Shown one piece after another: positions 14,269-40,613 of a stretch of 44,503 nucleotides of DNA (position 1 is its first letter; every line of letters starts with the position of its first letter). Source of the stretch: a virus. The stretch lies in the IMG/VR virus record IMGVR_UViG_3300024323_000012, positions 1 through 44,503 of that record, one strand, 5' to 3'. A model generated the notes under the pieces. It was given only the letters and a program-made list of their open reading frames with translations, did no database searches and had not been told where the DNA came from. A program made the translations under genes and the position numbers.

Positions 14269-14478
14269 ATGAGCAACTCGCCCCGACGCAAAGCGATCAA
14301 GTCCCGGCAACTGCGGAGAAAGCAGGCGCGCGCCGACGTGCAGGCGATGATTCGATTCGCAGACAGCCTTGGCCCGCCCAATCATCCCTCGGCCCTCATC
14401 TTCCGACGAGAGGACTGGGATATTTACGCCTACCAGTCGCCGGTCTTTCACTTCGATCCCCCCGACGCCGGCTGCTGA
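14269..14478 (+). CDS. Small counter-oriented basic protein 3
   Basis: 69 residues from ATG at 14269, six bases after the previous stop. The N-terminal half is strongly basic (MSNSPRRKAIKSRQLRRKQA), which suggests nucleic-acid binding. The C-terminal half is aromatic and acidic (REDWDIYAYQSPVFHFD). The last 31 bases overlap the 3' end of the oppositely oriented endolysin gene, so the two transcripts are complementary there. Confidence 0.5.
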   Translation: MSNSPRRKAIKSRQLRRKQARADVQAMIRFADSLGPPNHPSALIFRREDWDIYAYQSPVFHFDPPDAGC

Positions 14479-15179
14479 ACAGCAGCCGTTTGGCCGCCAA
14501 TTGGCAGATCGACCAGGTGCTGATCGATCATCCGGCGCAGCAGCACGGCCGCGCCGATCTGCTGCGAGACCGCGTTCGGATCGAAGTGACCGTCGCTCAC
14601 AAACTTCCCCCTCGAGTAGATCGATGACGATCCCCAGAGGTACGGTGAAGGGATGCTCTTCATCTGATATCCCCAGCCGTTGTAGACCTCGATCTTGAAG
14701 AGCGCGCCGGAGACCGTCTCCCAGTCGTGCCAGACGTCGAAGCCGTCATACAGCAGCGCATCGTCCGCGCTCTCTTCCCACGTGCCGTTCGCGCTCCATC
14801 GCAGCGGCCGGCCTTTCGGCTCATTGACGGTGCGAGCGTGCAGCGGATCGCCGTTATGGAGGTGGCAATTGAAATTGCCGTCGCACTCCATGTTGTGCAG
14901 CAGGGCGATGATGAACCACGGCACGCTTGTGCGCGCCTCGACGTTCTCGTAACGCCCGCGGTTCTTCATGATCCGCGTGATGATCTGCTCCACTTCATCC
15001 TTCTTTTCCGGAGCGACAACGCACGCTTTGAAACGCGCGTCGTATTGATCGCGAAGCTCTTTGGTCAGCAGCACGTTCTCACCCTCCCAACAACACAACC
15101 ACAGCGTTCCCGGCTGCGGATCGACGGCGGCCGCCGAGGCGACGACTGTCGCAACTGCATGCAGGAGCACGATGGACAT
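14448..15179 (-). CDS. Endolysin-like lysozyme-fold protein with an N-terminal export segment
   Basis: 243 residues from ATG at 15179, one base after the previous stop. I recognise a lysozyme-superfamily pattern seen in 'peptidoglycan-binding/lysozyme' proteins: IALLHNMECDGNFNCHLHNG, then DPLHARTVNEPKGRP, then YNGWGY, SPYLWG, and KFVSDGHFDPNAV. Glu98 in HNMECD is the likely catalytic acid. The first ~18 residues (MSIVLLHAVATVVASAAA) are hydrophobic and could be a signal or signal-arrest-release segment. It would cut peptidoglycan at lysis. It is unusually placed among head-tail joining genes, away from the membrane protein cluster near 25-27 kb. Confidence 0.75.
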   Translation of the reverse strand: MSIVLLHAVATVVASAAAVDPQPGTLWLCCWEGENVLLTKELRDQYDARFKACVVAPEKKDEVEQIITRIMKNRGRYENVEARTSVPWFIIALLHNMECDGNFNCHLHNGDPLHARTVNEPKGRPLRWSANGTWEESADDALLYDGFDVWHDWETVSGALFKIEVYNGWGYQMKSIPSPYLWGSSSIYSRGKFVSDGHFDPNAVSQQIGAAVLLRRMIDQHLVDLPIGGQTAAVQQPASGGSK

Positions 15180-15180
15180 C

Positions 15181-15816
15181 TCACGCCTCGCCTCCACTAC
15201 CGAACATTCCGTAGTGCTGCACGACGCGCCCTTCGAAATAGACGATGTCGTCGGGCGACAACCCCAGCCACCAACGCTCGGGCTCATGAACCGAAGGCAC
15301 GAGCATGAACAGAAACTCGATCTCGTAGCCCCCCGACTTTGGCCGCTGCACGAGGAAGGCGTTGCCAGCCTCCGAGACCAGGAGAAACGCGTCCGGCCAC
15401 TGCTCTCGGATTGAGACGCCGGCCTGGTACTGATTGGCGACCTCTTCGCTCATCGGGATGGCCAGAGCCTTCTTCCCGGCTGTCGGATAGATCGTCTTGC
15501 CTTCCTGGTGAACGGCCGCACGGATGTCGTCCGAAAAGAGTGCGAACGTGCGGCCGTCGAATTCGTAGGATGCCGAGGCGAGCAGACGTCCGGTCTTGTC
15601 GAGCGTTTGACCACTAACGCCCGCGGCGCGCGCGGAGACCGGCCATGCGGATCCATCCGGAGCGATGCCGCCGGCGGCGCGCAGATGCGTCTGAAGGATC
15701 GCTTCTTCGCCGAAGTCGTTCCATACGGGCGAGAGATCCTGCGACTTGCCGATCGCGCGATCGAGGATACCCTGCAGCCCGTCGAGCCCCGTGATTTCGA
15801 TTCCCATGGCGCACAT
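15181..15816 (-). CDS. Virion morphogenesis protein (Mu gpG-like)
   Basis: 211 residues from ATG at 15816, in a TGATG overlap with the previous gene and with GGAGGA 8 bases upstream. The pattern MGIEITGLDGLQGILDRAIG, then 'TGRLLASASYEFDGRTFALF' and 'IHQEG'-like AAVHQEGKTIYPTAGKKALA matches the phage virion morphogenesis (gpG/tail completion) family, here with a longer C-terminus than Mu gpG. It probably acts at the head-tail joint. Confidence 0.75.
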   Translation of the reverse strand: MCAMGIEITGLDGLQGILDRAIGKSQDLSPVWNDFGEEAILQTHLRAAGGIAPDGSAWPVSARAAGVSGQTLDKTGRLLASASYEFDGRTFALFSDDIRAAVHQEGKTIYPTAGKKALAIPMSEEVANQYQAGVSIREQWPDAFLLVSEAGNAFLVQRPKSGGYEIEFLFMLVPSVHEPERWWLGLSPDDIVYFEGRVVQHYGMFGSGGEA

Positions 15817-16322
15817 CAGACGAATCCTCCAGTTCGGAGCGTTGTCCGTGTTGCTTCGCTCTCCGCCCAGGCGCCGGCGCTCGAGGTGATCTGCACCGTG
15901 CGCTCGCGCGCCACGCCGATCGTCTTCCGCTCGGCCGCCGCATCGCCGGCGATCTGCTCGAGCCATTTATCGATCGCCTTCTTCACTCCGGAGTAGTAGG
16001 TCGACCTATCACCGGCGTTGAGCAGCGAGGGACGCCGCTGCAGGAGTTTGTACATCGTGATGTCGAGGACCTTGCCGACGATGAACGCTTTGAGCTCGTC
16101 GGCTTCGACCGTCGTGGCATCGTCGCGCGGCGCGATCGGGGTCGCGTAGTAGGACGATGCCGCCACGTGCACATCGGCCTCCGCCTCGGCGATCTTCGCG
16201 TCGACGACCGTCCAGTCCGGATCCCCGGAGTAAGGAGGTGCGTCGAGAGTGATCTTCTTCAACTGCTCGAGCTCGAGCCGCTGTAGAAGATCCTGCGCGG
16301 TGATTCCGTAGGCGGAGGCCAT
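15816..16322 (-). CDS. DUF1320 head-tail joining protein (Mu gp36-like)
   Basis: 168 residues from ATG at 16322. It shows the DUF1320 layout: an N-terminal 'YGITAQDLLQRLELEQLKKI', central alternation of helices with 'DVHVAASSYYATPIAP', then IVGKVLDITMYKLLQRRP. It follows the capsid and the small protein at 16,342 as in Mu (gp34-gp36). It is likely an adaptor/connector protein below the portal. The GGAGGA site is 13 bases away, rather far, so translation may be coupled. Confidence 0.8.
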   Translation of the reverse strand: MASAYGITAQDLLQRLELEQLKKITLDAPPYSGDPDWTVVDAKIAEAEADVHVAASSYYATPIAPRDDATTVEADELKAFIVGKVLDITMYKLLQRRPSLLNAGDRSTYYSGVKKAIDKWLEQIAGDAAAERKTIGVARERTVQITSSAGAWAESEATRTTLRTGGFV

Positions 16323-29519: not shown

Positions 29520-30647
29520 TTAGTTCAGCGGCGGCTCGAAACGGGCCGTCGCTGAGCTGCTCTTTGCTTGTTTCTCGATGAATGCTCGGACATGAGGAAT
29601 CGTCACACTCCGAATGTCAGATACCTCTGTGGCGTGCCTACTGCTTCTTCTCAACGCATCATGAAGGTAGGCGAGAGCACGAGCCGTCTCTCGGTCCAGC
29701 CCACTTGCATTAAACGCGGCGATGATCGGCGGGCAGATCTTTCGCGCTTCGATCGAACGATCCAATGCCAGGAGCGCGTCGACGCGGTCGAGACCAACGA
29801 GAGCCTCTTCGACGCGCATCGACAATCGCCCAAACTCAACTCCGACAACTGTCAGCGCCGAAACTGCTTCCACTAATCTTCCTTCAGCCAAGAGCACCCT
29901 TGCCACGCTCCAGTCAACCTTCACAGCGTCAGCCGTGCTTCCGGCTGCGATGAAGTTGGCCTTTGCCCTGGCAAAGTACGTCCGAGCGCCTGCGAAGTCG
30001 CCTAGACCTCGAAAGCACAGCGCAATGGTGTGAAACATCATGGCTGAAGCGCTGGCGTCTTTCGATCCACCGCCCAGATCTCGATCAAGATCCCGCCACG
30101 CTGCCAGCGCATCAGCAGGCCTCCCGGCGAGATACAAGATGGTGGATTCGATCAAGCGAGCGTTGACGAACTGGCGCATCTCTCCAATCCGAAGGAACAC
30201 GGCCGCCGCCTCGCGCACTTGGAAGACCGCTTCCAATCCACGATGAACCTGGTGAAGAACGTTGGCTCGCGTCAGCACCAGCCTGGCTCGATCGAAATCC
30301 GGGCTTCCGCCTTTCGCGAGTTCTTCTTCTGCTCTTTCGAGAGCCGCAAATGCCTCCTCGTTCCTACCTACAAACGTTAGCGACTCCGCATGCTCTCTCC
30401 AGGCGTTCGAACGCAACAGGCAGACGCTCGACGACGTATCGTTTTCGAGACGGTCAGCGATCGACGTCGCGAGGGTCGTCAACTTCACCGACATTTCAGG
30501 ATCGCTTCGCGCAACGGAACGCGCGCGTTGGATGCAGGAGGAAACGTTAGAAGCGGTGTCGCTTGCGGCGGGCGGGGTCCAAACCTCGCCCCGGCGAAGC
30601 AAGGCGACCATCTCAGCGTCGCTTTCGTCAAACTCCGGCGAGGTCAC
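29520..30647 (-). CDS. Cytoplasmic TPR protein coupled to the repressor
   Basis: 375 residues from GTG at 30647, with AGGGGGAT 7 bases upstream and 21 bases after the repressor stop. No signal peptide. It consists almost wholly of TPR-type helical pairs (for example RNEEAFAALERAEEELAKGG; AGRPADALAAWRDLDRDLG; LGDFAGARTYFARAKANF; EGRLVEAVSALTVVGVEFG). Length and architecture resemble peptide-binding RRNPP regulators such as Rap (~380 residues), but the HTH is a separate protein here. TPR proteins of similar make-up are also common in Acidobacteriota. It probably modulates the repressor. Confidence 0.7.
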   Translation of the reverse strand: MTSPEFDESDAEMVALLRRGEVWTPPAASDTASNVSSCIQRARSVARSDPEMSVKLTTLATSIADRLENDTSSSVCLLRSNAWREHAESLTFVGRNEEAFAALERAEEELAKGGSPDFDRARLVLTRANVLHQVHRGLEAVFQVREAAAVFLRIGEMRQFVNARLIESTILYLAGRPADALAAWRDLDRDLGGGSKDASASAMMFHTIALCFRGLGDFAGARTYFARAKANFIAAGSTADAVKVDWSVARVLLAEGRLVEAVSALTVVGVEFGRLSMRVEEALVGLDRVDALLALDRSIEARKICPPIIAAFNASGLDRETARALAYLHDALRRSSRHATEVSDIRSVTIPHVRAFIEKQAKSSSATARFEPPLN

Positions 30648-30668
30648 TGGCTTATCCCCCTGGCTTTG

Positions 30669-31238
30669 TCAGCGCCGACGACGTGATATCGCTCGCTCTC
30701 CAGCAGGGCGGGCGGCCTTGCTGCCGATCGTGTCATCGATCGATGAATCCGTCCGCACATGAGCGAACAGATCCCGGAGAAACTCAAACTGCTCGTGTGG
30801 TTGCAAGCTTCCGAATGTTTGGAGAAACTGATCGCCGGCAGGCTCCTTCGATGAACTGCCGCGTGCTGTTTTACGAACTGGCGATCGTTGCTGCGCCTCA
30901 CCTGTCCTTTCACGACAAAACGCATCAAGTATTTCGAGCTGGCGGCTTGCTCCGGCGGCGTAGCGCCGAATCTCTTCAAAATCCGCCGTGCGTGAAGGAC
31001 CAGCCGTTTTCGGCTCGAGCCTACCGCGCACCGGAAAGTCCGTGACGTCGAGCGCAGCGAGGACTGCCAACAGAAGGCTGATGGTCCCGCTCCCGTCCTT
31101 CTCAAGTGAGTAGATCGTTTGCCTTGTTGTTTCTGAACGCTTAGCCAACCGCTCCTGGGACCAACCCTTTGCTTTCCGCGCATCGCGAATGTAGGCAGCG
31201 ATGCGCTGCTCTCGGGCGCCAGACTTCGACCTCGGCAT
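30669..31238 (-). CDS. XRE-family repressor (lysogeny regulator)
   Basis: 189 residues from ATG at 31238. Residues ~14-70 form a classic XRE HTH (ARKAKGWSQERLAKRSETTR, then QTIYSLEKDGSGTISLLLAV). The C-terminal ~120 residues are charged and contain EILDAFCRERTGE and LQPHEQFEFLRDLF; there is no LexA-type peptidase or Mu-type ClpX tag that I can see. It is transcribed leftward, opposite to the early operon, with a palindrome touching its start codon. This is the expected geometry of the lysogeny repressor (functional analogue of Mu c / lambda cI). Confidence 0.8.
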   Translation of the reverse strand: MPRSKSGAREQRIAAYIRDARKAKGWSQERLAKRSETTRQTIYSLEKDGSGTISLLLAVLAALDVTDFPVRGRLEPKTAGPSRTADFEEIRRYAAGASRQLEILDAFCRERTGEAQQRSPVRKTARGSSSKEPAGDQFLQTFGSLQPHEQFEFLRDLFAHVRTDSSIDDTIGSKAARPAGERAISRRRR

Positions 31239-31254
31239 GTAAACAATAGTTTAC
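31239..31254. promoter_or_regulatory. Operator palindrome GTAAAC-AATA-GTTTAC
   Basis: A perfect 6+6 inverted repeat with a 4-base centre abuts the repressor ATG. Its middle provides the TATTGT -10 hexamer of the leftward repressor promoter, so binding here would block repressor transcription (autoregulation). Confidence 0.7.
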
Positions 31255-31273
31255 GCTCAGCAGACTGCGTCAA
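31243..31273 (-). promoter_or_regulatory. Leftward repressor promoter, probably leaderless
   Basis: On the minus strand TTGACG (31273-31268) is separated by 19 bases from TATTGT (31248-31243), which ends 4 bases before the ATG at 31238. No ribosome site is present. The transcript would start at about the A of the ATG, as known for lambda cI from PRM. Confidence 0.5.
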
Positions 31274-31278
31274 GCAAG

Positions 31279-31292
31279 TACGGACTTCCGTA
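31279..31292. promoter_or_regulatory. Second operator palindrome TACGGA-CT-TCCGTA
   Basis: A perfect 6+6 inverted repeat with a 2-base centre, located between the two divergent promoters. Its sequence differs from the first palindrome, so it may be the site of a second regulator, for instance the Cro/Ner-like protein encoded at 31,377. Confidence 0.6.
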
Positions 31293-31339
31293 CCACGGTT
31301 GATTTGCCTCATATAGAGCCTCCGCTTCGATCAAGAGTA

Positions 31340-31369
31340 TTGACAAGATTCCTTTACGTCAACTATTCT
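31340..31369 (+). promoter_or_regulatory. Rightward early promoter, probably leaderless
   Basis: A perfect TTGACA (31340-31345) is followed after 18 bases by TATTCT (31364-31369). The GTG start of the first early gene lies 7 bases further on, where transcription should begin, and there is no ribosome site. This is the best consensus promoter in the window. Confidence 0.7.
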
Positions 31370-31376
31370 TTGCATC

Positions 31377-31649
31377 GTGAAACGGAAACGGCGACTCACC
31401 TCGACGACCCAGCTAAAGCGATTCATCACACGCCACCGGCGCGAGAACGGCCTGACAGTCGTTGCCCTTGCCCGTGAGACCGGGTACACGCGCCCACACA
31501 TCTACAACGTCGCGAATGGCCAGGACCCGACACGGGAATTCATGGACCTGATGCTGGTGGCGTGCGCGAAGCTCATCGGGCGTCACGTCGATCGCGAGGA
31601 GCTTTTTGAGTTCAAGCCGTACCGGGACAAAGCAAGGAAGGCGTCATGA
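31377..31649 (+). CDS. Cro/Ner-like HTH regulator, first early gene
   Basis: 90 residues from GTG at 31377, directly downstream of the early promoter. An XRE-type HTH covers residues ~25-60 (GLTVVALARETGYTRPHIYN, then VANGQDPTREFM). It is preceded by a basic arm (MKRKRRLTSTTQLKRFITRH). By position it matches the early negative regulators Ner (Mu) and Cro (lambda), which switch off repressor and early transcription. It overlaps the next gene as ATGA. Confidence 0.75.
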   Translation: MKRKRRLTSTTQLKRFITRHRRENGLTVVALARETGYTRPHIYNVANGQDPTREFMDLMLVACAKLIGRHVDREELFEFKPYRDKARKAS

Positions 31650-31954
31650 TCCGCCTCCTCGTCGCGCTCTTCGTCAACCAGTTCGCCATCGCGCTGCGCA
31701 CGCATTCGGTTGGGCAGCTTCGGGGGAAGAGGACCTCGAGTGCTGCCAGCGCGGTGGCGGAGAAGAAGTCCCCTTCGCTGACCCCTCGCGATGTTGCCAA
31801 CCGACTTGGTATCTCCGTGCAGACGGTCATTCGTCACTACGACTCTGGCGCGCTCGTTGGTGTCGATCTAACCGCGTCAGCGGGGCGGCGGCGGCGCCTA
31901 CTGCGCTTCGATGACGAAGACGTCGCGCGCTTCGCCGCGGAGGCCGCGCGATGA
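31646..31954 (+). CDS. Excisionase-like HTH protein, early
   Basis: 102 residues from ATG at 31646. The C-terminal half is an HTH_17/excisionase-type domain: SLTPRDVANRLGISVQTVIR, then HYDSGALVG, then a basic wing RRRRLLRFDDEDVARF. It has the same element order as the late-strand protein at 28,276-28,635 (VARRLGVSASTV; DYFDSGELAG; RRRMLRFLDDDVERF), so the two are probably paralogues. The N-terminus is hydrophobic (MIRLLVALFVNQFAIAL) and may not fold with the HTH. Likely role: DNA binding at the switch or at transposition sites. Confidence 0.65.
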   Translation: MIRLLVALFVNQFAIALRTHSVGQLRGKRTSSAASAVAEKKSPSLTPRDVANRLGISVQTVIRHYDSGALVGVDLTASAGRRRRLLRFDDEDVARFAAEAAR

Positions 31955-32187
31955 GCGGCAACGTCGTCGTCGGCCGCGGAGTGATGGAGGCTCGGGCCGA
32001 ACAGATGCGCGAAGGCGGACGGCGCGGCGGCATCAACCGGCACGCGATTGTCCGGCGAGAACGAGCAGCGGCTCAGCTTTTCACCGGCGCGATCGTCGTG
32101 CTCGGCGATCACTCGGAATGCGATCCCACCTCTCCTTTGAGCCTTTGCAATGAATGTCTGCGGCTTTGGGCGGAGGCTGCGCGATGA
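31951..32187 (+). CDS. Small early protein, unknown
   Basis: 78 residues, ATGA overlap on both sides. The N-terminal half is Arg/Gly-rich (GGRRGGINRHAIVRRERAAA); the C-terminal half has CDPTSPLSLCNECLRLW with three Cys, perhaps a metal site. No family is recognised. Its place just before the transposase suggests a regulatory or accessory role. Confidence 0.6.
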   Translation: MSGNVVVGRGVMEARAEQMREGGRRGGINRHAIVRRERAAAQLFTGAIVVLGDHSECDPTSPLSLCNECLRLWAEAAR

Positions 32188-32462
32188 AAACCATCACCGT
32201 CGTTGGCTGCGGATGTGGTGAAGCTCATCCGGACCTCAGTTTTTACGAGTTCGCTCGCCCGTTCACGATCCGGGGACTCCACTACACCCACTGGTCGCAT
32301 TGCCCGACATCAGGCGAACCTCTCTGGATTTCAGTTGATGTCGAAGAGTGGCGGCCGGCACCACGCCAACGACGCTATCCAACAGCTCCACTGATTCCTC
32401 TCGCGTCTCTTCCGATTGACATGCAAGCCCGTTACGCCGCGCGCAAGAGAGGCCCACGATGA
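32184..32462 (+). CDS. Small early protein with C-x-C and CPTSGE motifs (paralogue 1)
   Basis: 92 residues from ATG at 32184. An N-terminal GCGCGEAHPDLSFYEFARPF is followed by HWSHCPTSGEPLWISVD; Cys and His positions suggest zinc binding. The same order of motifs occurs in the 66-residue protein at 32,647. Its C-terminus, SLPIDMQARYAARKRG, resembles HSLPSDAQARYLQGR in the N-terminal region of the transposase encoded next door. Function unknown. Confidence 0.6.
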   Translation: MKTITVVGCGCGEAHPDLSFYEFARPFTIRGLHYTHWSHCPTSGEPLWISVDVEEWRPAPRQRRYPTAPLIPLASLPIDMQARYAARKRGPR

Positions 32463-32650
32463 CCGAGGTCAGAGTGTTGTCGGCCGACCTAACGCAACGG
32501 CTCCTCGCTTCACTTAAGGACGCACATGACGCGCTACTCCTTCACGCGAGCGAGACCAGCAAGGACGCAATTCGCACCGATCTGAACGAACTGTTTAACG
32601 AGATCGCCACGCTCCCGACTTACACCCTGGCGATGAAGGGCGAGCTATGA
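32459..32650 (+). CDS. Small early helical protein
   Basis: 63 residues, ATGA overlaps with both neighbours. It is an acidic helical protein (LTQRLLASLKDAHDALLLHA) without motifs. It lies between the two paralogous CPTxGE proteins. Function unknown. Confidence 0.55.
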   Translation: MTEVRVLSADLTQRLLASLKDAHDALLLHASETSKDAIRTDLNELFNEIATLPTYTLAMKGEL

Positions 32651-32847
32651 CCGCGCGCCCCGATCGGATCGCGGTTGACGTCATCAACTGCGCGCGTTGC
32701 CAGGGGAAGCACGACGCCATCGAATTCATCCGCCGGGCGCGACCTCTCGAAATCGATGGCCGCCTCTTCCCGTGGTGGGCGGCCTGCCCGACAACCGGCG
32801 AAGTGATTAACCTCCGCACCGTCCAGACGGAGGTGGCCAGCTCGTGA
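32647..32847 (+). CDS. Small early protein with CxxC and CPTTGE motifs (paralogue 2)
   Basis: 66 residues from ATG at 32647. INCARCQGKHDAIEFIRRAR is followed by WWAACPTTGEVINLRT. Compared with the 32,184 product it shares the C..C/H start, the 'EF.R..RP..I.G' stretch, the 'W..CPT.GE' box and the spacing, so the two probably arose by duplication. A zinc-ribbon-like fold is likely. It ends in a GTGA overlap with the transposase gene. Confidence 0.6.
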   Translation: MTARPDRIAVDVINCARCQGKHDAIEFIRRARPLEIDGRLFPWWAACPTTGEVINLRTVQTEVASS

Positions 32848-35162
32848 CCGCCTTCCCTCCCATCGAGATCGATCCGCTTCCGGTGTCGGTCGTGGCGTCG
32901 CTGCTGGACGTTACGCCTAGATCCGTTCGCGAGCGCGCCCAACGCGGAACCTCGCTACGCATCGCCGCCCGGCAGACGATCGGATTCAACAGCGACGCCA
33001 TCCTCATCGACTTCCATTCACTCCCATCCGACGCACAAGCACGCTACCTTCAAGGCCGCTCGGACATCGTCGCCTCGATCACCGCGCAGGCAACACAGGA
33101 GAAGCGGCAAGAGCGTTTCGCACGTGCTGATGAACGTGTACGGGCCCGGGCGCTGGCACGCGAGACGGCCGTCATTGCCTGGCGTGCCTTCCTTGCCGGC
33201 GGACGCCGATCGGAGAGCCAGCAGCAGGGATTCGTCGACGGCAACCGCGAGACGTTCCGTGTGGCCGAGCCGGGCGGCGGCGATCACGCGCTGCCGATCT
33301 CGGTACGCTCTCTCAAACGCTGGACGTCCGCGTACAAAGAGCAGGGGCGTGACGGGCTAGTCGACAGCCGCGACGGCTCGCATCTGCGCGGCCGCGTGAG
33401 CTTCGCCGAGGACGTCCGGCTGCGCGCGGAGGCGCTCTATCTGCGTTACCCGCGGCGCACCATCGCGCAGTGCTACCGCCTGCTGACGAAGGAAGCGAAA
33501 GCGCACGGCTGGAAGCTGCCGCACTACAAAGCCATCTACAACTACCTCTCCGGACTGGCGCCGGCGCTTGTGCAGCTTTACCGCTACCCGGAGAAACGCC
33601 ACAAGCAAATCCGCCCCTTCGTCATCGGCGACTACGAGTCGCTGCAGGCGATGGAGATGATCGAGAGCGATCACCACCAATGCGACGTAGCGGTGAACTG
33701 TGAGTCTCCGTTCTGCGAGATCTCGCATTACCCGTGGATCACGATCTGGTACGACCTCCGCTCGCGCAAAGTCCTCGACATCGAGTTGTACGTCGATCCT
33801 CCGAACAGCCGCCACATCCTCGAAGGGTTGTGCCGGGTCTGGATGAAGCACGGGCTGAATCGTTATGGACACGTCGACAACGGCGCCGACTTCATCAAGG
33901 CGCTCGGTAAGTGGGGCTGGAAACACTACGAGGTCGGCCGCCGCAGCGCGAAGCTGCAGGAGTGCGCCGGGTTCGATCCCGAGTCGATGAATCGTGTCGT
34001 CGGTCCATTCGGCACGGAGATGATTTTCTCGATTCCTGGTGAGCCCCAAGGAAAGCCGGTCGAGCGCTTCTTCGGCACTCTGGCCGTACAGGCCTACCGA
34101 GAGTTCGAGTCGTTCCGCGGAGCTCTGGGCGAGCGCAGCGACCGTGCCGAGTACTTGCGTAAGCATCCCGCCGAGCTGCCGACGCTGACCGAGTTCCGCG
34201 CCGCGCTCGAGCGCACGATCGAGGAGTACAACGCGCGTCCGCACCGCGGCGCCGGCATGGACGGGCGATCGCCGAACGAAGTGTTCGAAGACCCGGCCAT
34301 CCGCATGCCGCGGCAGGATCCGGATCCCGCCGCCCTGGCCGTGGCGTTCTGGCATGAGAAGGTCGGCGCGCAGGTCGGACGTAACGGCATCCTGTTTCAC
34401 AAGCGCACCTATCGCCTGCCGGCGGACAAACACGCCACGTACCTCCTGCAGAAAGTCGTCATCCGTTACCACGAGGCCAAGCCCGAGATCATCGTGGTCG
34501 GCGATGCCATGGGGCGCTTCATCGGCGTGGCCGAGGATGTGAGTGTCACCGCGGCGGCTCCGAAGGGACGATCGCCGAAGGTCGCGTCCGCGATCGCCGG
34601 CCGCAATCATTTCTGGCACGAAGTGAGAGGCGCGCTGGAGGCGATGCATCCGAAGATGCGTGGCCGCATCAAAGACGTGGACGCCGAGGAGTATCAGCGC
34701 CTCGTGGCGATGCGCGAGGAGGCTGAGGCCGTGCCGCAGATCGCCGCGGCCTCCGGCGCCGAGGGGGGTGTGGTCACCGTCGTCGACCGGCACCTCTCGC
34801 CCCTTGCCAGGCAAATCGCTGAAGCGGAAGCGCACCTGGCCAACCCATACGGTCTCTCTGCTGCCGACCTGGTACTCGCCAGCGACCCATCCTCTGCACC
34901 CATCCCCATTGAAGCCCTCCGTGAGCGATTTGGACCTATGAGCTACCTGCCCGGCGGCAGCGGAGAGACCGAAGAGGACCAGCGCGCGGTAACCGAGGAG
35001 CTGAGCGCGGCCGCGCTGCGCGAGCTCAAGCGGGAGCGCGACGACGCAGGGATGTGTGTGTACGACCTCGACTGTCCGGACATGGGAGAGATCGCGCTTC
35101 CGGACGATCACAAAAGCCAGATGTGCAGGAAGCACTACGAACGAGTTTTCGGAACGAGCTGA
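32844..35162 (+). CDS. A: MuA-type DDE transposase
   Basis: 772 residues from GTG at 32844. Domain order: an N-terminal winged-helix (SVVASLLDVTPRSVRERAQR, ~10-75); HTH segments for end binding (SVRSLKRWTSAYKEQGRDGL; 'TIAQCYRLLTKEAKAHGWKL'); and the RNase H-like catalytic core with D276 (MIESDHHQCDV), D345 (GHVDNGADF) and E407 (GKPVERFFGTL), spaced as in Mu (D269, D336, E392). A beta-barrel and a helical region follow. The end carries a zinc-knuckle-like CVYDLDC...MCRKHYER, which Mu lacks. It joins phage ends to target DNA for integration and replicative transposition. The clustered overlapping early genes suggest co-translation. Confidence 0.95.
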   Translation: MTAFPPIEIDPLPVSVVASLLDVTPRSVRERAQRGTSLRIAARQTIGFNSDAILIDFHSLPSDAQARYLQGRSDIVASITAQATQEKRQERFARADERVRARALARETAVIAWRAFLAGGRRSESQQQGFVDGNRETFRVAEPGGGDHALPISVRSLKRWTSAYKEQGRDGLVDSRDGSHLRGRVSFAEDVRLRAEALYLRYPRRTIAQCYRLLTKEAKAHGWKLPHYKAIYNYLSGLAPALVQLYRYPEKRHKQIRPFVIGDYESLQAMEMIESDHHQCDVAVNCESPFCEISHYPWITIWYDLRSRKVLDIELYVDPPNSRHILEGLCRVWMKHGLNRYGHVDNGADFIKALGKWGWKHYEVGRRSAKLQECAGFDPESMNRVVGPFGTEMIFSIPGEPQGKPVERFFGTLAVQAYREFESFRGALGERSDRAEYLRKHPAELPTLTEFRAALERTIEEYNARPHRGAGMDGRSPNEVFEDPAIRMPRQDPDPAALAVAFWHEKVGAQVGRNGILFHKRTYRLPADKHATYLLQKVVIRYHEAKPEIIVVGDAMGRFIGVAEDVSVTAAAPKGRSPKVASAIAGRNHFWHEVRGALEAMHPKMRGRIKDVDAEEYQRLVAMREEAEAVPQIAAASGAEGGVVTVVDRHLSPLARQIAEAEAHLANPYGLSAADLVLASDPSSAPIPIEALRERFGPMSYLPGGSGETEEDQRAVTEELSAAALRELKRERDDAGMCVYDLDCPDMGEIALPDDHKSQMCRKHYERVFGTS

Positions 35163-35195
35163 GGCTCGCTTCGGCAAGTGAAAGGAGAGCATTCA

Positions 35196-36206
35196 ATGTC
35201 GTCAGCCCTCGCAGAAGTAAAAAGTCCCACGACGGGGCCAACCGCCGTGGGAGCGCTGGATACGGCGTTCATCGAAGAAGCGCGCCGCAACCTTCAACAG
35301 CACAAGGATAAACGAGAACTGTCGGAAACGGATCTGGCGGCTCGGATTTCCAAGTGCACCAACGTGCAGTGGAGTGGAAGCGCGGTGGGCGGGTTTCTGC
35401 GCTCGAAGTACGGTGCGGATGAGAGCTCGCTCGCACGCTGTGCCGCTGCGTATCTCGAAGTCGAGGACCAGCGCCTTTCCGTGGGCGGCGAGCTCGCCTA
35501 CGTGCGGACGACGGTCGCGCGCGACATCGAGCGGGCCGTGATGATCGCCGAGAAGCTGCGCATGATCGCGATCATCTCGACGAGTGCGGGATGCGGCAAG
35601 AGCCGGATCATCGCGGAGCTCCGCTCGCAGCGAAACTCGATCGGCATCTCCTGCAGCGACGACCTCAACACGCGCTGGGCCCTTGCCGCCGAACTGCTCT
35701 ACAAGCTGACCCGCGACGACCGCCGCGGGCGATCGTCATCACTGGCCCGCCGGCGCATCGAGGAGATGCTCATCCGCAACGGCCATCCGACGATCTTCGT
35801 CGACGAGGCGCAGAAGATCGGAATCGCCTGCGTCGACTATCTCCGGCAGATCGCCGATCAGTCACGTTGCCCTCTCATCATCTTCGGTAACGAGCAGGTC
35901 TACGAGCAGAGCGGCGGCAACGCGGCCGCCCACGCCCAGTACAGCTCGCGCGTCGTTGCCAGGGTGCACATCAGCATTGCTGACCTCAAGCGTTCGGACC
36001 TCCGCCTGGTCGCCCAACAACTCTGCTCGAAGACGACGGTCGATCTGTGGATCGACATCGTCGAGGCGGCGGCGAAACAGGAAGGCGGGTTCCGCACGGT
36101 GAAAGCGATCATCGAAGTGGCGAAGATCCTCTTCGACACCGTCGAGCCGACGCGCACGCAGATCATCCACGCAATTCAGTTCGTGAAGGGCGGGGCGTTC
36201 CAATGA
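35196..36206 (+). CDS. B: MuB-type AAA+ target-capture ATPase
   Basis: 336 residues from ATG at 35196, with AAAGGAGAG 6 bases upstream; an upstream GTG (35178) lacks a site. An N-terminal HTH (~25-75, 'LAARISKCTNVQWSGSAVGG') is followed by the ATPase: Walker A TSAGCGKS (K135), Walker B IFVDEAQK (D203) and the C-terminal DNA-binding helices. It binds target DNA, gives target immunity and activates MuA. It lies 33 bases after the transposase. Confidence 0.93.
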   Translation: MSSALAEVKSPTTGPTAVGALDTAFIEEARRNLQQHKDKRELSETDLAARISKCTNVQWSGSAVGGFLRSKYGADESSLARCAAAYLEVEDQRLSVGGELAYVRTTVARDIERAVMIAEKLRMIAIISTSAGCGKSRIIAELRSQRNSIGISCSDDLNTRWALAAELLYKLTRDDRRGRSSSLARRRIEEMLIRNGHPTIFVDEAQKIGIACVDYLRQIADQSRCPLIIFGNEQVYEQSGGNAAAHAQYSSRVVARVHISIADLKRSDLRLVAQQLCSKTTVDLWIDIVEAAAKQEGGFRTVKAIIEVAKILFDTVEPTRTQIIHAIQFVKGGAFQ

Positions 36207-36448
36207 ACCGCGCCGCTAAGTTCGACCCGCAGAGCGTGCGCTCGATCGAGATCGTGATCAGCGGCACGGATCACATGCCGGAGTCGATGACGGCCGTCCA
36301 TGCGTCGGGCGAGCGCTTCGAGGCGGGATCGATCGCCATCAACACGGTCTTCCATGAGGGCGTGGGCGATGTGTTCTGCGCCACCGGCGACTTCGGCAAT
36401 CCGAAGATGAAGGTGGCGGTGCTGGTAGCGAAGGAGGTGATGGGATGA
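36203..36448 (+). CDS. Small early protein, unknown
   Basis: 81 residues, ATGA overlaps on both sides. Predicted beta-rich (RSIEIVISGTDHMPESMTAV; KMKVAVLVAKEVMG) with one Cys. No family is recognised. It is co-transcribed with MuB. Confidence 0.6.
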   Translation: MNRAAKFDPQSVRSIEIVISGTDHMPESMTAVHASGERFEAGSIAINTVFHEGVGDVFCATGDFGNPKMKVAVLVAKEVMG

Positions 36449-37161
36449 AACTTCTCTCCCTCGTCGGCCTCGCTACCGCGGAAGAAGTGACGACGTTGCG
36501 CGCGCAGCTCGCGAAGCAGGTCGAGGCGAACACGAAGCTGGCGATCGCCATCGACCAGCAGCGCACAGTGATCGCGGATCAGGCGCGGCGGCTGGCCGAT
36601 GCCGCCGACGAGATCGACGCCGGCGAGAACCGCAGGTCGCGGATGCAGGCCGAGCTCGATCGCGTCCATCTCGAACATCAGGAGCTGGTGTTGAGCTTCG
36701 ACGAGGCGAATCGTCTGATTCAGCGCCTGCAGAGCGAGCGACCGCAGATGCGACTGGTGCGCAATGAGAAGCCTCTCGCCGGCGAGCGCGACGAGGAGAG
36801 CGCACCGTCCACGGATGACGTGATCGTCCCGGAGCACAAGGTGGAGATGTCGGCTCGGGTGGTGGTCATCGCGTTCGAAGGCCGTGTCCACTGGACTCTG
36901 AGCGCGAACGATCACCTGTTCAAGGTGCCGGTACACGACAAGGATTTCCTCGCCCGCGTGCATGCCGGCGCGCAGCTCTTCGGTCACGGATCGGTCATCC
37001 GCGCCGAGTTCCTCGAGACCACGTATCGCCGCTCGGCCGACGAGCGCGGCGAGCCCTACACGGAGCGGACGCTCGAGCACGTGATCGAGGTGATCCCGCC
37101 GCCATCAACAACCAACACACAACTTGAACTTGCCGGCACGCCGGAAGGAGCTACAGCATGA
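36445..37161 (+). CDS. Coiled-coil early protein, unknown
   Basis: 238 residues. The first ~100 form a long charged helix, likely a coiled coil (EEVTTLRAQLAKQVEANTKL; DRVHLEHQELVLSFDEANRL). The second half is a globular domain (ARVVVIAFEGRVHWTLSAND; HDKDFLARVHAGAQLFGHGS). It ends in an ATGA overlap with an exported protein gene. No family is recognised. Confidence 0.6.
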   Translation: MKLLSLVGLATAEEVTTLRAQLAKQVEANTKLAIAIDQQRTVIADQARRLADAADEIDAGENRRSRMQAELDRVHLEHQELVLSFDEANRLIQRLQSERPQMRLVRNEKPLAGERDEESAPSTDDVIVPEHKVEMSARVVVIAFEGRVHWTLSANDHLFKVPVHDKDFLARVHAGAQLFGHGSVIRAEFLETTYRRSADERGEPYTERTLEHVIEVIPPPSTTNTQLELAGTPEGATA

Positions 37162-37661
37162 AGAGAGCAATCGTCATCCTCTTGGCCGCGATCGCGGCTA
37201 TCAGCGCAACCAACGCGCACGCGCAACTCTGCGCCGTCCCTTACGAGTTTTGTCAGCTCGGATGTCCTGACATCGGCTCCTACTCGATCGCCTCGTTCGG
37301 CTCAATGGCGGAGGCCGCGGCGTTCATCGGCACGCTCAACGGCGTGCAACAGGAAACGGTGCGGATCACGGTCTTCCCGGCCTACTCCGCGCACATCGTG
37401 GTCGCCTACCGCGTGCTGGCGACGGAGAGGCCTCACGACACCGCTCCGATCGGCCTGAGCTGCTCGACGAGCCTCGCCGTGATGCGCGGCTACGTTTCGA
37501 TCGAGACGGCTGAGGTGGAGATAAATCAGCTCCCTCTCGCGCAGCGTGCCTCGGCCGCGATCGTGGCCGCGACTGCCGTTCCGAACGACCCCAACACACG
37601 CGCACTGCTGATTTTCCGAACCGTGGACACGACCGTCGCGGGCGATCAGGGAAGGAGGTAA
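37158..37661 (+). CDS. Exported Cys-containing early protein
   Basis: 167 residues. The signal peptide MKRAIVILLAAIAAISATNA ends near AHA-Q. The mature part has four Cys (LCAVPYEFCQLGCPD; GLSCSTS) that could pair in the periplasm, and a beta-rich body. An exported product in the early operon next to MuB and Gam is unusual; superinfection exclusion or envelope modification soon after infection is a reasonable guess only. Confidence 0.6.
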   Translation: MKRAIVILLAAIAAISATNAHAQLCAVPYEFCQLGCPDIGSYSIASFGSMAEAAAFIGTLNGVQQETVRITVFPAYSAHIVVAYRVLATERPHDTAPIGLSCSTSLAVMRGYVSIETAEVEINQLPLAQRASAAIVAATAVPNDPNTRALLIFRTVDTTVAGDQGRR

Positions 37662-37664
37662 CCA

Positions 37665-37940
37665 ATGGCACCCATGGCAATCACGGATTTTACGAACAGC
37701 GAGCGGAGAACGCTGGCGATCGTGGCGCTGGCTCTCGATGAACTTGCGCCGGAAAAGCTGGAAGCAGCGATGCGTCTCCTGGCGGCCTCTCGCGACCTCG
37801 ACGACCCGTCGATGGACGTCCTGGGCGGTGCGCTCGAAGTGCTGGGCCATGAGCCGCGTACTCACGAGCTGCTCGCGTATCTCTGCGACGAGAGGCCGCT
37901 GGTCGATCTCCAGAGCGAGATCTGGCGCGCGCTGTTCTAA
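37665..37940 (+). CDS. Small helical early protein
   Basis: 91 residues from ATG at 37665 with GGAAGGAGG 6-7 bases upstream, one of the strongest sites in the operon. All-helical and acidic (AIVALALDELAPEKLEAAMR; HEPRTHELLAYLCDERPLVD). No recognised family. It ends just before a structured non-coding spacer. Confidence 0.6.
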   Translation: MAPMAITDFTNSERRTLAIVALALDELAPEKLEAAMRLLAASRDLDDPSMDVLGGALEVLGHEPRTHELLAYLCDERPLVDLQSEIWRALF

Positions 37941-37950
37941 ACGCCTGTGC

Positions 37951-38080
37951 CTGCGCCGCGGCCCGTTCGTCGCGGCGCAGAACAGAGGCGGTTGTCTGCG
38001 CTGTGCTGCGGCGGTTGGGAGGGGCGGCGGGGGGATGCGTGGGAGCAAGCGGGCCACGCAGCACAGCGGAGGCAATTGCC
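37951..38080 (+). ncRNA. Structured spacer before gam (two strong stem-loops)
   Basis: In the 161-base gap 37,941-38,101, CTGCGCCGCG (37951-37960) pairs perfectly with CGCGGCGCAG (37971-37980), and CGCTGTGCTGCG (37999-38010) pairs perfectly with CGCAGCACAGCG (38057-38068). A palindrome GGCAATTGCC (38071-38080) follows, just before the gam ribosome site (GGGAGGGG). Neither stem has a T-tract. It may act as an attenuator, processing site or small RNA. Confidence 0.4.
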
Positions 38081-38101
38081 GCCAGTGAAAGGGAGGGGAC
38101 G

Positions 38102-38638
38102 ATGTCAGCGAAGAAGAAGGCAACACCAGCAACGCCGGCGACGCCGGTAATCAAGATCGCGAACTGCGACGAGGCGGACCGGAAAGGGTTGGAGCTCGGC
38201 CGGGCGCGTCTCGAGCGCGAGGCGCTGCAGAACGAGATCAGCCAGGAGAAGACGGCGATAGACCATAAATTCGCCGCGCGCATCGAGGCACTGGCGAAGA
38301 CCGAGCTCGAGCTGCAACTCGCACTCGACGCGTTCGCCGCGAAGCACGAGAAGGCCGAGAGCCTCAACTACATCGACATCGTGAGCTCCGGTGGAGGCTT
38401 GGCCGTCATCTTCGAGGACGAAGCCGACGTCATCAAGCGGCTGAAACGCTCGGACGTTTGGAAGCACCTCGTGAAAGCGACGGAGTCTGTCTCCAAGCGG
38501 GACCTGGCGAAGATCCCCGCGAAGCTGCACAAGCGGTTCGGCTTCACCTATGGGCCAACCAACGTGACGTACAGCGTCAAGCCAAAGCTCGACCAGGTGC
38601 GCATCTACGCCGAACGCCATCCCACCGCGAAGAGGTAA
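38102..38638 (+). CDS. gam: Gam-like host-nuclease inhibitor (DNA end protection)
   Basis: 178 residues from ATG at 38102 with GGGAGGGG upstream. The Gam pattern is visible: a long N-terminal helix (GRARLEREALQNEISQEKTA, KFAARIEALAKTELELQLAL), then the strand region VSSGGGLAVIFEDEADVIKR and the C-terminal LAKIPAKLHKRFGFTYG. Length matches Mu Gam (174). Mu Gam binds DNA ends as a Ku-like dimer and blocks exonucleases. The usual 'GKTV.F..G' strand is modified here. Confidence 0.8.
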   Translation: MSAKKKATPATPATPVIKIANCDEADRKGLELGRARLEREALQNEISQEKTAIDHKFAARIEALAKTELELQLALDAFAAKHEKAESLNYIDIVSSGGGLAVIFEDEADVIKRLKRSDVWKHLVKATESVSKRDLAKIPAKLHKRFGFTYGPTNVTYSVKPKLDQVRIYAERHPTAKR

Positions 38639-38642
38639 CCCC

Positions 38643-39053
38643 GTGAATCAGCTCATCCGACGTCTCATCGACGTGTATCTCGTTCAACCACTCGCCACCG
38701 CAGTCACACAACACCTTGAAGGAGGACAACAAAAAGTCATGGACGCACTCGACAAGATCAAACAGCAACTCGACGGCGTAAACGCCGCCCTGACCGAGGC
38801 AAAGATCCGCGCGGCCAAGCTCGTCTCCCGCTTCGACGATCTGCAAAAACAGATCGCCGGACACCCGTCGATCGAGGACGACCCGCGCCTGGCCGCGATC
38901 CTGGCGGAAGCCACCGACATGAGCGCCGCCGCGGCCGCGATCGTTCCCGATACGCCGCCGGCTGAGCCAGCACCGGCGACCGCAGCGGCCGTCACCGACG
39001 CGCCGCCGCCTGACCCGAACAGCGACGAGTTCAAGGCCGGGAAGGACACGTAG
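38643..39053 (+). CDS. Coiled-coil early protein with Ala/Pro tail
   Basis: 136 residues from GTG at 38643, 4 bases after gam. A helical N-terminus (NQLIRRLIDVYLVQPLATAV) and coiled coil (MDALDKIKQQLDGVNAALTE) are followed by an Ala/Pro-rich low-complexity end (PAPATAAAVTDAPPPDPNSD). The start region and coupling to gam suggest joint expression. Unknown function. Confidence 0.6.
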   Translation: MNQLIRRLIDVYLVQPLATAVTQHLEGGQQKVMDALDKIKQQLDGVNAALTEAKIRAAKLVSRFDDLQKQIAGHPSIEDDPRLAAILAEATDMSAAAAAIVPDTPPAEPAPATAAAVTDAPPPDPNSDEFKAGKDT

Positions 39054-39061
39054 TCAACCTC

Positions 39062-39084
39062 TCCGGCCGTTCATGCCGGCCGGA
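39062..39084 (+). terminator. Perfect 8-bp hairpin after the gam segment
   Basis: TCCGGCCG (39062-39069) pairs with CGGCCGGA (39077-39084) around a 7-base loop, 8 bases after a stop codon. There is no T-tract, so termination would be weak or factor-dependent. Confidence 0.4.
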
Positions 39085-39155
39085 TTGCTCCAAACACGTT
39101 CGATGAGCCCACGCAGTAGCAACAGAGGAGGTTCGATGAAGACATAGATGCGAAA

Positions 39156-39234
39156 TCCCGGTGCCTGCCGCCCATCACACCAGCAGAGATGCTGCTCTTG
39201 TTCGAAGCCAAGTAACCCGCGGGTGGCACCGGGA
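39156..39234 (+). ncRNA. Candidate structured RNA element in the early operon
   Basis: The 209-base gap 39,054-39,262 interrupts an otherwise tightly packed operon. TCCCGGTGCC (39156-39165) pairs perfectly with GGCACCGGGA (39225-39234), enclosing an inner stem AGCAG/CTGCT (39182-39186/39192-39196). Just upstream, AGAGGAGG is followed by a 3-codon frame ATG AAG ACA TAG (39136-39147), reminiscent of a leader peptide. Riboregulator, attenuator or small RNA are possible. Confidence 0.4.
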
Positions 39235-39262
39235 ATCGTTCGGAGGTGGTGCTCCGAGCCTG

Positions 39263-39643
39263 ATGAGCAGCCAAGAGGAGGAGCCCGACACCGTGACCAT
39301 CATCTGCGAATGCACGCATCCAAAGACCGGCCACCGCGCACAGTACGGCGAGGCCGGCAAAGGCGCTTGCTTCACTTGTCACTGCTCGGGACTGCGCATT
39401 GCGCGCTACGTCCTTTTCCTGGGCGAACGGCGCATCCTGGCGAAGATCGCGGAGTCGAAGACGATTAACGTCTTCGAGCTCGATCGGCAGCTCCACGCGG
39501 AGAGTGATCCAGCCGCTGACGCCGCCGCTGCGATCTGCCGGAACCTCTACGTGGCCGGCTTCGTCTCATATTCGGCCGGAGCCACAGTCTCAGCCACGAG
39601 CTCCGGCCGGCAGTACCTCCAGGAGACGCCGCCCCGTGGCTGA
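39263..39643 (+). CDS. Zinc-binding small early protein
   Basis: 126 residues from ATG at 39263 (a GTG at 39293, just before CECTH, is an alternative start). A four-Cys cluster, ICECTHPKTG...CFTCHCSG, suggests a zinc ribbon in the first third; the rest is helical (ILAKIAESKTINVFELDRQL). The end has a Ser/Gly-rich strand. It overlaps the next gene by 8 bases. Unknown; zinc-ribbon proteins of this type often bind DNA. Confidence 0.55.
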   Translation: MSSQEEEPDTVTIICECTHPKTGHRAQYGEAGKGACFTCHCSGLRIARYVLFLGERRILAKIAESKTINVFELDRQLHAESDPAADAAAAICRNLYVAGFVSYSAGATVSATSSGRQYLQETPPRG

Positions 39644-39899
39644 GTTCAAGCCCAACGACGAGCAGATCCTGCTGCTCTCGCGGATCGCGGCAAACGTCGC
39701 GATCGAGATCTCGACGCTTGCCACGGGCGATCTCGAGACCGATTTCCTGACGTCGATCAACCTGATTCACCTGGCGCACCAGGGATACATCCACTACCTG
39801 CCCGGCACGCGCGTCGCGATGTGCTCGAAGGCCGGCAGGATCTGGGTGCATGCGTTTGAACGTCCCTCGACGCAGAGCACCATCGGGGTGATGCATTGA
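39636..39899 (+). CDS. Small early protein, unknown
   Basis: 87 residues from GTG at 39636 (VAEFKPNDEQ), with AGGAGA about 9 bases upstream. Helical first half (EQILLLSRIAANVAIEISTL) and a beta-type second half (HYLPGTRVAMCSKAGRIWVH). It ends in a TTGA overlap with the winged-helix gene. No family is recognised. Confidence 0.55.
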   Translation: MAEFKPNDEQILLLSRIAANVAIEISTLATGDLETDFLTSINLIHLAHQGYIHYLPGTRVAMCSKAGRIWVHAFERPSTQSTIGVMH

Positions 39900-40288
39900 T
39901 CGACCTCGCTCATCTCGTCGGCTCCCGCCACAACGAAGCCCGCCGGCGCGTGAACACGATCGTCTCGCGGCTTCGCCCGCTCAAGGGCCGCGCGGCCGCG
40001 ATTTCGATGCACGCGATCGCCGCGGAGACGGAGATCTCCACGCGCGACATCCAGGCGATCGTCAAATACCTGGTCGAGGAGCGGCACTTTCCGATCGGCA
40101 CCGCGATGAGCGAGCCGCGCGGCTATTTCTGGATCGCCTCGGAGGCCGAACGCCGCGCGGTCCGCAATCACTTCATCCGCCGCGGCCGGTCCGTGCTCGA
40201 GCACGCCCGCGCCTACGACAGCGAGGACATCGTCGGCCCGCTGCTCGGTCAACTCGACCTGGTGTTCAAAGAGGAGGAACAACCGTGA
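39896..40288 (+). CDS. Winged-helix-like DNA-binding protein
   Basis: 130 residues from TTG at 39896, coupled to the previous stop. The core KGRAAAISMHAIAAETEIST followed by RDIQAIVKYLVEERHFPIGT and a wing-like EPRGYFWIAS fits a winged helix of the kind seen in phage replication initiators or early regulators. The C-terminus is helical and acidic. It lies upstream of the DnaB-family helicase; a loader or initiator role is speculative. Confidence 0.6.
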   Translation: MIDLAHLVGSRHNEARRRVNTIVSRLRPLKGRAAAISMHAIAAETEISTRDIQAIVKYLVEERHFPIGTAMSEPRGYFWIASEAERRAVRNHFIRRGRSVLEHARAYDSEDIVGPLLGQLDLVFKEEEQP

Positions 40289-40452
40289 GCCCTGCCACTG
40301 AAGTGCTGTTTTCTGACATTGCCGAGAAGGCCATCTCCGACGCCGAGGAGCTCCCGGTGCCGTTCAGCAAATTCGTTGAGGGGCTCCAAGTCATCCGGGA
40401 CAACGTCCACGCACGCTGGCTGAACGCTCGTGAAGAGGAGGGGTCGCTATGA
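40285..40452 (+). CDS. Very small early protein (55 residues)
   Basis: GTG at 40285, with GAGGAGGA about 7 bases upstream, overlaps the previous stop as GTGA; the stop at 40450-40452 overlaps the next ATG. The peptide is acidic and helical (MSPATEVLFSDIAEKAISDA). Overlaps on both sides make it a credible gene despite its size. Unknown function. Confidence 0.55.
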   Translation: MSPATEVLFSDIAEKAISDAEELPVPFSKFVEGLQVIRDNVHARWLNAREEEGSL

Positions 40453-40613
40453 CCAGATGCGTCCGCTGCCTCGCCGAGGTCGACCTCGAGCAGTTCCTTC
40501 GCAACGACCACGTCTGTGATCCCTGCGGTGATCTCCCGATCACCGAGCAATACCGCTTCCGCTCAAACACGCCCGATCAACAGGCGGCGATCGCCGCCAT
40601 GGAGGAGAGATGA
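40449..40613 (+). CDS. Very small zinc-ribbon protein (54 residues)
   Basis: ATG at 40449 with GAGGAGGGG upstream; ATGA overlaps at both ends. RCVRCLAEVDLEQFLRNDHV followed by CDPCGDLP gives a CxxC-x16-CxxC zinc ribbon covering the N-terminal half. The C-terminal half is polar helix. Such mini zinc ribbons are common in phage early regions as DNA- or protein-binding adaptors. Confidence 0.6.
   Translation: MTRCVRCLAEVDLEQFLRNDHVCDPCGDLPITEQYRFRSNTPDQQAAIAAMEER

Follow-up and report, generated by a model that had tools for sequence, protein, structure and literature searches.

Why does an operon whose genes otherwise follow one another almost without a break leave two long gaps, and why are both of them folded? 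The question arose from a metagenomic virus record, IMG/VR IMGVR_UViG_3300024323_000012, whose entire 44503 bases are referred to here as the window. A preliminary description of this DNA held that nearly all early genes overlap by 4 bases and that two structured spacers around gam would be attenuators or RNA processing sites that set Gam dosage. Taken as a whole, the evidence presented below is best explained, with a probability of roughly 0.8, by both spacers serving as RNA punctuation marks in the early transcript of a Mu-like phage.

The phage and its early operon

The window encodes a MuB-like protein (PHROG 296, E 2.7e-28) and a Gam-like protein, and its transposase shares 25–26% identity with those of BalMu-1 and Mu, over part of the length only; it is therefore regarded as a distant Mu-like phage. 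The Gam-like protein scored 24.2 bits against PF07352, under the cut-off of 28.3 for that family. When compared with named phages, MuA showed 22–26% identity (10 of 152 records), and no near DNA match of the window was found among them. Four relatives in IMG/VR, designated L002 to L005, have transposases 66–75% identical to that of the window, and the gene order around gam is largely common to all five phages. Alignment searches with Gam or the transposase (MuA) returned no relatives beyond these four, and the clade as used here has five known members, the window included. A MuB search of genome contigs gave a single weak Lachnospiraceae locus, which was left unused.

Upstream of the transposase gene, approximately 60–70 bases of the window (31634–31704) are 85% identical to the L002 record and 90% identical to the L004 record, and no other match to these two records was found between 30000 and about 32860. 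This stretch could be a regulatory or end site.

In the ORF list, an overlap of exactly 4 bases is seen at eight junctions between 36445 and 41508; the others differ, with 3–4-base gaps at 37661/37665 and 38638/38643 and an 8-base overlap at 39636/39643. The two long gaps, spacer A and spacer B (39054–39262), enclose gam and one further ORF (Table 1). The inverted repeats reported in them were all found again. Spacer A contains perfect repeats of 10 bp (37951–37960/37971–37980) and 12 bp (37999–38010/38057–38068), and spacer B contains a perfect 8-bp hairpin and a 10-bp long-range stem. When fold energies were compared with those of dinucleotide shuffles, spacer A was clearly structured (2 of 200 shuffles as good) and spacer B moderately so (z −2.06, 4 of 200 as good). 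The opposite strands gave z −3.11 (2/200) and −1.30 (25/200), respectively, so fold energy alone cannot pick the strand. Covariation and fold energy against shuffles, on which the proposal of functional structure had been staked, both came out in its favor for the two spacers as wholes.

Table 1. Positions of spacers, predicted RNA elements and neighboring genes in the window.
Feature	Position	Strand	Basis or remark
Spacer A, between ORF 37665–37940 and gam	37941–38101	+	z −3.59
Hairpin 1	37943–37990 (core 37951–37962/37969–37980)	+	3/23 pairs changed on both sides
Hairpin 2	37992–38075	+	98.9% of cells paired; 3/18 pairs changed on both sides
G-rich loop of hairpin 2	38017–38043	+	regular-expression scan
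"Empty" cassette site GGCAATTGCC	38071–38080	+	window; L005 empty likewise
gam (Mu Gam-like end protection)	38102–38638	+	PHROG 491, E 5.9e-5; Pfam PF07352, E 3.6e-5
ORF of unknown function, with gam between both spacers	38643–39053	+	
8-bp hairpin 3′ of the stop of ORF 38643–39053	39062–39084	+	arms 39062–39069/39077–39084
Predicted type II hammerhead ribozyme	39149–39273	+	core motifs, stems, pseudoknot, Rfam
Stem II, 3 bp, open	39149–39151/39267–39269	+	UGC with GCA
GAAA core	39152–39155	+	
Stem III, 10 bp, one bulged A (39234 or 39235)	39156–39165/39225–39234	+	
59-nt insert closing stem III	39166–39224	+	
U39236, C39237	39236–39237	+	predicted cleavage after C39237
Stem I, 8 bp	39238–39245/39252–39259	+	
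CUGAUGA core	39260–39266	+	
Loop I–tail pseudoknot, 4 bp including one G-U	39247–39250 with 39270–39273	+	tail GCCA
ORF directly 3′ of the hammerhead, GTG start	39293–39643	+	weak PHROG match, transcriptional regulator, E 0.021

The downstream spacer

Judged by anatomy, core bases, conservation, covariation and recurrence, all of them read from sequence, spacer B almost certainly holds a type II hammerhead ribozyme, in the sense of a hammerhead by descent. The 10-bp long-range stem is stem III of this element, in which stems I and III are closed and stem II is open, with the order GAAA, cut, CUGAUGA. The spacer was described as ending at 39262, but the hammerhead runs on to 39273. With the predicted cut, 55 nt of leader would precede the GTG start of ORF 39293. 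A finder run on both strands, with thresholds that had been set with the window copy in view, gave a single occurrence of the full hammerhead pattern in the window and no occurrence in 100 whole-window shuffles. When relaxed, the same finder recovered the L002 copy and both L004 copies and missed those of L003 and L005, whose helices are interrupted. A coding role for the stem III insert was rejected, as its reading frame is not the same across phages (by eye).

Hairpins comparable to the 8-bp hairpin at the start of spacer B were seen by eye in L004 and L005. The idea that this hairpin is a relic hammerhead was unsupported, Rfam searches at E up to 10 giving only sub-threshold matches at chance level (best E 0.17).

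A hammerhead occupies the same place in all four relatives, which makes six copies in five phages, the window included, as L004 has two (L004a and L004b). GAAA, CUGAUGA, A15.1–U16.1 and C17 are present in all six copies, in agreement with the class consensus (CUGANGA, H17), the core motifs having also been used to locate them. Stem III shows standard pairs in 58 of 58 cells, with changes on both sides at seven of 10 positions, and stem I is paired in 45 of 46 cells, with such changes at three of eight positions; for these counts the register was chosen and the bulges were placed by hand (a single unpaired base in the 3′ strand of stem III for the window, L003 and L004a copies, and two such bases in the L005 stem I). 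Stem I of L004a consists of six pairs, and that of L003 contains an A.C mismatch. The loop I–3′ tail pseudoknot, which is usual but not universal in type II hammerheads, has 4 bp at the same loop offset in five copies and only 3 in L004a. Its pairing is preserved through the exchanges UGGC/GCCA, UGCC/GGCA and CGGC/GCCG, which are compensating in L002 and L004b. RNAalifold, run on a MAFFT alignment, found the both-sided changes in stems I and III unaided; stem II was not predicted, and the CUGAUGA stretch was paired with an upstream GAUGAGC instead.

The Rfam model Hammerhead_II (RF02276) gave 60.6 and 41.3 bits for the L004 copies and 41.3 bits for L003, and 34.4 bits (E 1.5e-5) for the window, 33.9 for L005 and 32.3 for L002. 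Three of the six copies pass the 37-bit cut-off, which is the Rfam gathering score and hence a matter of curation rather than a structural feature. In whole records, RF02276 matched once each in G000, G001, G002 and G004 and twice in G003. The RF02276 alignment in the window takes another stem III, which we attribute to the 59-nt insert in the real one; the insert and the bulged A together would explain why the window copy falls below the cut-off. Fold energy by itself, taken over just the hammerhead stretches, would have missed the ribozyme: against 200 shuffles, z was −1.62 for the window (16 as good), −3.73 for L002 (0), −0.30 for L003 (78), −0.59 for L004a (58), −2.18 for L004b (7) and −1.49 for L005 (17).

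The window copy probably self-cleaves. It may also be slow or dead, considering the bulged A beside the cleavage-site pair and the score under the cut-off. The same two features would fit a decayed, inactive hammerhead left behind by lost cargo genes, as would the GGAGG upstream, after which the relatives have a stop and no ORF and the window has just a 3-codon frame. However, the core bases are kept in six of six copies, the changes in the helices are compensatory, and the mean ungapped identity is 0.83 in the 3′ hammerhead part (a 45-column stretch, core included), compared with 0.72 in gam and 0.61 in ORF 39293. We therefore consider such decay improbable and keep to a hammerhead that is probably active. 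As a separate observation, the stretch 39126–39147 just before the hammerhead, where a stop comes soon after GGAGG, holds no ORF in any of the four relatives and only three codons in the window; it has the appearance of a remnant of a gene that was lost.

Attenuation or leader-peptide control of gam, as envisaged in the preliminary description, would give a purpose to the strong stems, to the ribosome site AGGAGG (39126–39131) and to the 3-codon frame ATG AAG ACA TAG (39136–39147), both present in the window as described. Yet the four relatives keep GGAGG without an ATG before the next stop (by eye), which speaks against a conserved leader peptide. Terminator-like sites in 37600–39700 are at chance level on both strands (2 versus 2.1 expected), one of them (39181–39194) being part of the stem III insert; the same region yielded no promoter-like site. 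Spacer B also lies downstream of gam. Control of this kind is thus extremely unlikely. Gam dosage as the target was not supported either: the hammerhead lies 3′ of both gam and ORF 38643–39053, directly before ORF 39293, and in other phages such ribozymes precede many different small genes.

Hammerheads in other phages

Type II hammerheads have been described previously (Perreault et al., 2011; PMC3088659). The present element resembles this class (RF02276) in the order GAAA, stem III, UC, stem I, CUGAUGA and open stem II, in a stem II of 2–3 bp, in the loop I–3′ tail pseudoknot and in its location between phage genes. The window copy differs in the bulged A adjoining the cut. Hammerheads between prophage genes were already known, so spacer B counts as a variant within a known kind.

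A survey covered 115 distinct hammerhead-like sites among the matches listed, at loci mostly fetched by one core motif. The distance from GAAA to U16.1 is 80 nt in the window, 96–109 in four other copies and 20 in L004b, whereas it is 10–39 in 106 of the 115 sites listed; the finder was strict and missed the window and L005 copies, and long stem III sites may be undercounted. What is unusual in spacer B is the long stem III (80–109 nt in five of six copies) together with the bulged A of the window. No description of this operon, or of type II hammerheads with a long insert in stem III, was seen in the open-access PMC material searched, mostly titles and the beginnings of abstracts. Around the surveyed sites, 103 of the 115 listed had an ORF of at least 60 aa starting no more than 90 nt from the CUGAUGAG start (median 27 nt), and 100 had an ORF ending −60 to +25 nt from GAAA, both counts being taken without a shuffle control. 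The order of stop codon, hammerhead and start codon is common.

In PMC3088659, several hammerhead types are reported in groups around single prophage genes, with self-cleavage of three such arrays in vitro and of one in E. coli. L004 is similar in that two hammerheads bracket one small gene of 89 aa (15837–16106), whose product had no Pfam match at E up to 0.1; L004 has no match for ORF 38643. The window differs from these clusters in having only one hammerhead, a second exchangeable site being marked by spacer A, which has a different structure.

The densest array in this analysis was seen in a 57-kb record (L016/L248, IMGVR_UViG_3300017605_000570), with 24 type II hammerheads in approximately 7.6 kb (about 9.9–17.5 kb), many neighboring ones having one small ORF between them. 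At unrelated loci of other phages (L086 and L112), the stem III inserts have a CUGCAUGG.GCAG hairpin in common, a possible side domain. A natural aptazyme built on this hairpin was considered and dropped: a motif scan gave L112 and four loci outside any hammerhead, and Rfam found no match at these four.

The upstream spacer and the exchangeable cassette

Spacer A is composed of two hairpins. When it was trimmed to 37941–38086, z was −3.82 and none of 200 shuffles was as stable, and its orthologues in the four relatives gave z of −5.86 to −7.44 with 0/200 shuffles each. In the alignment, 94.4% of cells form pairs and both-sided changes occur at 6 of 48 pairs, values that none of 500 shuffles reached for either count; the structure was derived from the same alignment of five related sequences. 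The best slid version of the alignment had three both-sided changes. One of five measures, further pair types, was not above the shuffles (113/500). The main helix of hairpin 2 has 18 consensus pairs with up to 3 above (23 in the window's own fold), and a G.G mismatch interrupts it in six of six aligned sequences. Rfam at the gathering score found nothing in the whole window, and among 4227 families at E up to 10 spacer A had only chance-level matches. A coding function of spacer A was rejected: some frames are open, but frame-breaking indels separate the conserved stretches (by eye).

In L002, L003 and L004, hairpin 2 and gam are separated by a cargo gene, which is flanked by a perfect inverted repeat of 20 bp with all six arms identical (cassettes at 14647–15413, 14991–15694 and 14324–15005, respectively). 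The cargo proteins have an apparent signal peptide (by eye), and those of L002 and L003 are 43% identical; neither had a Pfam match at E up to 0.1 or a PHROG match. A distant DNA search with the L002 cassette yielded only pieces of 3–4% of the query, in one phage and eight plasmid records.

A DNA scan found the 20-bp repeat, again perfect, in L254, which is part of a 97-kb phage record (cassette at about 1119–1949, − strand). This record is apparently unrelated to the window phage, as comparison with 30000–40500 of the window revealed no transposase, Gam or DNA similarity; the transposase search was run without a positive control of its own, and the searches with Gam and DNA did recover their targets elsewhere, in other records. 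The order in L254 is hairpin 2, repeat, a gene whose product has similar ends (by eye), inverted repeat and GAAAGGGA. Its cargo protein had a weak PHROG match (phrog_32851, E 0.023); no matches were found for the L002 form of the cargo protein in phages or for the L254 form in plasmids. Hairpin 1 was not seen in L254 (by eye), and the L254 record contained no RF02276 hammerhead.

Model R1, built without L254, finds hairpin 2 there with 57.6 bits (E 4e-11), and its strong matches fell in five of the 50 sources first searched, clade only. Model R2, in which L254 was included, had strong matches in only six of 16 records searched whole, and its next best match (E 0.004) lay antisense to this hairpin; in 100 loci, some of which come from those records, it gave no match below E 0.1. 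A pattern scan for hairpin 2 returned clade records only, among the matches listed. The loop of hairpin 2 contains the only + strand G3+N1-7 quadruplex motif in the window, with two on the − strand elsewhere; a G-quadruplex as an essential part of spacer A was rejected, since it is missing from L254. The similarity between L254 and the clade begins where hairpin 2 starts and reaches to about GAAAGGGA, extending beyond the repeats on both sides. By these comparisons, hairpin 2 would be the constant left part of an exchangeable cassette, of which the window carries the site without cargo.

We tentatively interpret spacer A as a processing site, a reading whose odds fall a little short of even and which is drawn from stem length and from the company of the hammerhead. 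RNase III processing stems occur in T7 early mRNA and pre-rRNA. Spacer A is similar to them in its stem of 18–23 bp, hairpin 2 reaching the approximately 20 bp of double-stranded RNA expected of an RNase III site, and in the perfect 20-bp stem that would close around one gene in L002–L004 and L254; it differs from them in the G.G mismatch and in arms that are conserved in sequence.

Alternatively, spacer A and the inverted repeats could act as DNA, as recombination or transposition sites that swap cargo, with the hairpins as by-products. This explanation is possible, if on balance unlikely. It would suit the perfect 20-bp repeats, identical in both arms in L002, L003, L004 and L254, the presence of cargo in three and its absence from two of the five clade phages, and the occurrence of this module in a 97-kb record for which no similarity was found otherwise; the invariant 20-bp arms themselves cannot tell RNA from DNA. 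On the other hand, hairpins 1 and 2 covary, the orientation of the cargo relative to hairpin 2 is the same in four of four cases, and the similarity between L254 and the clade continues outward from either repeat, a pattern that simple terminal inverted repeats leave unexplained. For this last reason, a simple transposon with terminal inverted repeats was rejected as an account of the cassette.

RAGATH-type structured RNAs are found near hammerheads, and spacer A is like them in that it is conserved, structured and close to a hammerhead, here in a Mu-like phage; it differs in matching no Rfam family above chance. The approach of looking for structured RNAs near hammerheads is described in PMC10085705, which also gives Mu-like phages as the strongest reported ribozyme association in bacteria. 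A location approximately 1 kb from a hammerhead in such a phage and many invariant bases besides the pairing might suggest that spacer A is itself a new self-cleaving ribozyme. Many of the invariant bases, however, lie in stems, the long hairpins have no obvious junction core, and the matches to the 4227 families at E up to 10 were at chance level, which makes a new ribozyme very unlikely and leaves the processing site as our tentative choice.

Processing and gene exchange

If both spacers are RNA punctuation, the hammerhead would cut the polycistronic RNA after C39237. The upstream product, with gam and ORF 38643, would have the long stem III hairpin at its end, together with a 2′,3′-cyclic phosphate, and the downstream product, from ORF 39293, would start with a 5′-hydroxyl and the stem I hairpin. 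We infer that the hairpins at these ends would protect both products and separate their decay. Spacer A, going by its stem length, would most likely be cut by a host double-strand RNase rather than by itself. Of the functions first suggested, RNA processing sites stand for spacer B, a hammerhead by sequence, and for spacer A remain a best guess.

Both spacers sit where gene content varies: spacer A occurs with or without a cassette, and spacer B has one hammerhead or, in L004, two around a gene. For this reason they may be read as processing points that insulate exchangeable genes, a reading that for B draws on a known ribozyme class and for A on stem length and company. It does not extend to every exchange point having an RNA element. 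Gene content also varies at ORF 40610, without a match in L003 and L004, and at ORF 40285, with a match only in L004, points with no known RNA element.

A bolder version would be an RNA-framed cargo cassette that moves horizontally and consists of hairpin 2, a gene in the loop of a long perfect stem and GAAAGGGA; it would be cut out as a monocistronic message, and hammerheads with an enlarged stem III would do the same job nearby. We consider this version rather unlikely. If it were true, spacer A would represent a new class of phage RNA, one that is processed or even catalytic.

PMC6155905 and PMC10085705 treat the role of hammerheads in phages and prokaryotes as an open question. The 24-hammerhead array of L016/L248 would be a good test object. 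A putative hammerhead and an unnamed RNA element at two points of variable gene content lead to a testable proposal, namely that processing sites may mark and insulate exchangeable genes.
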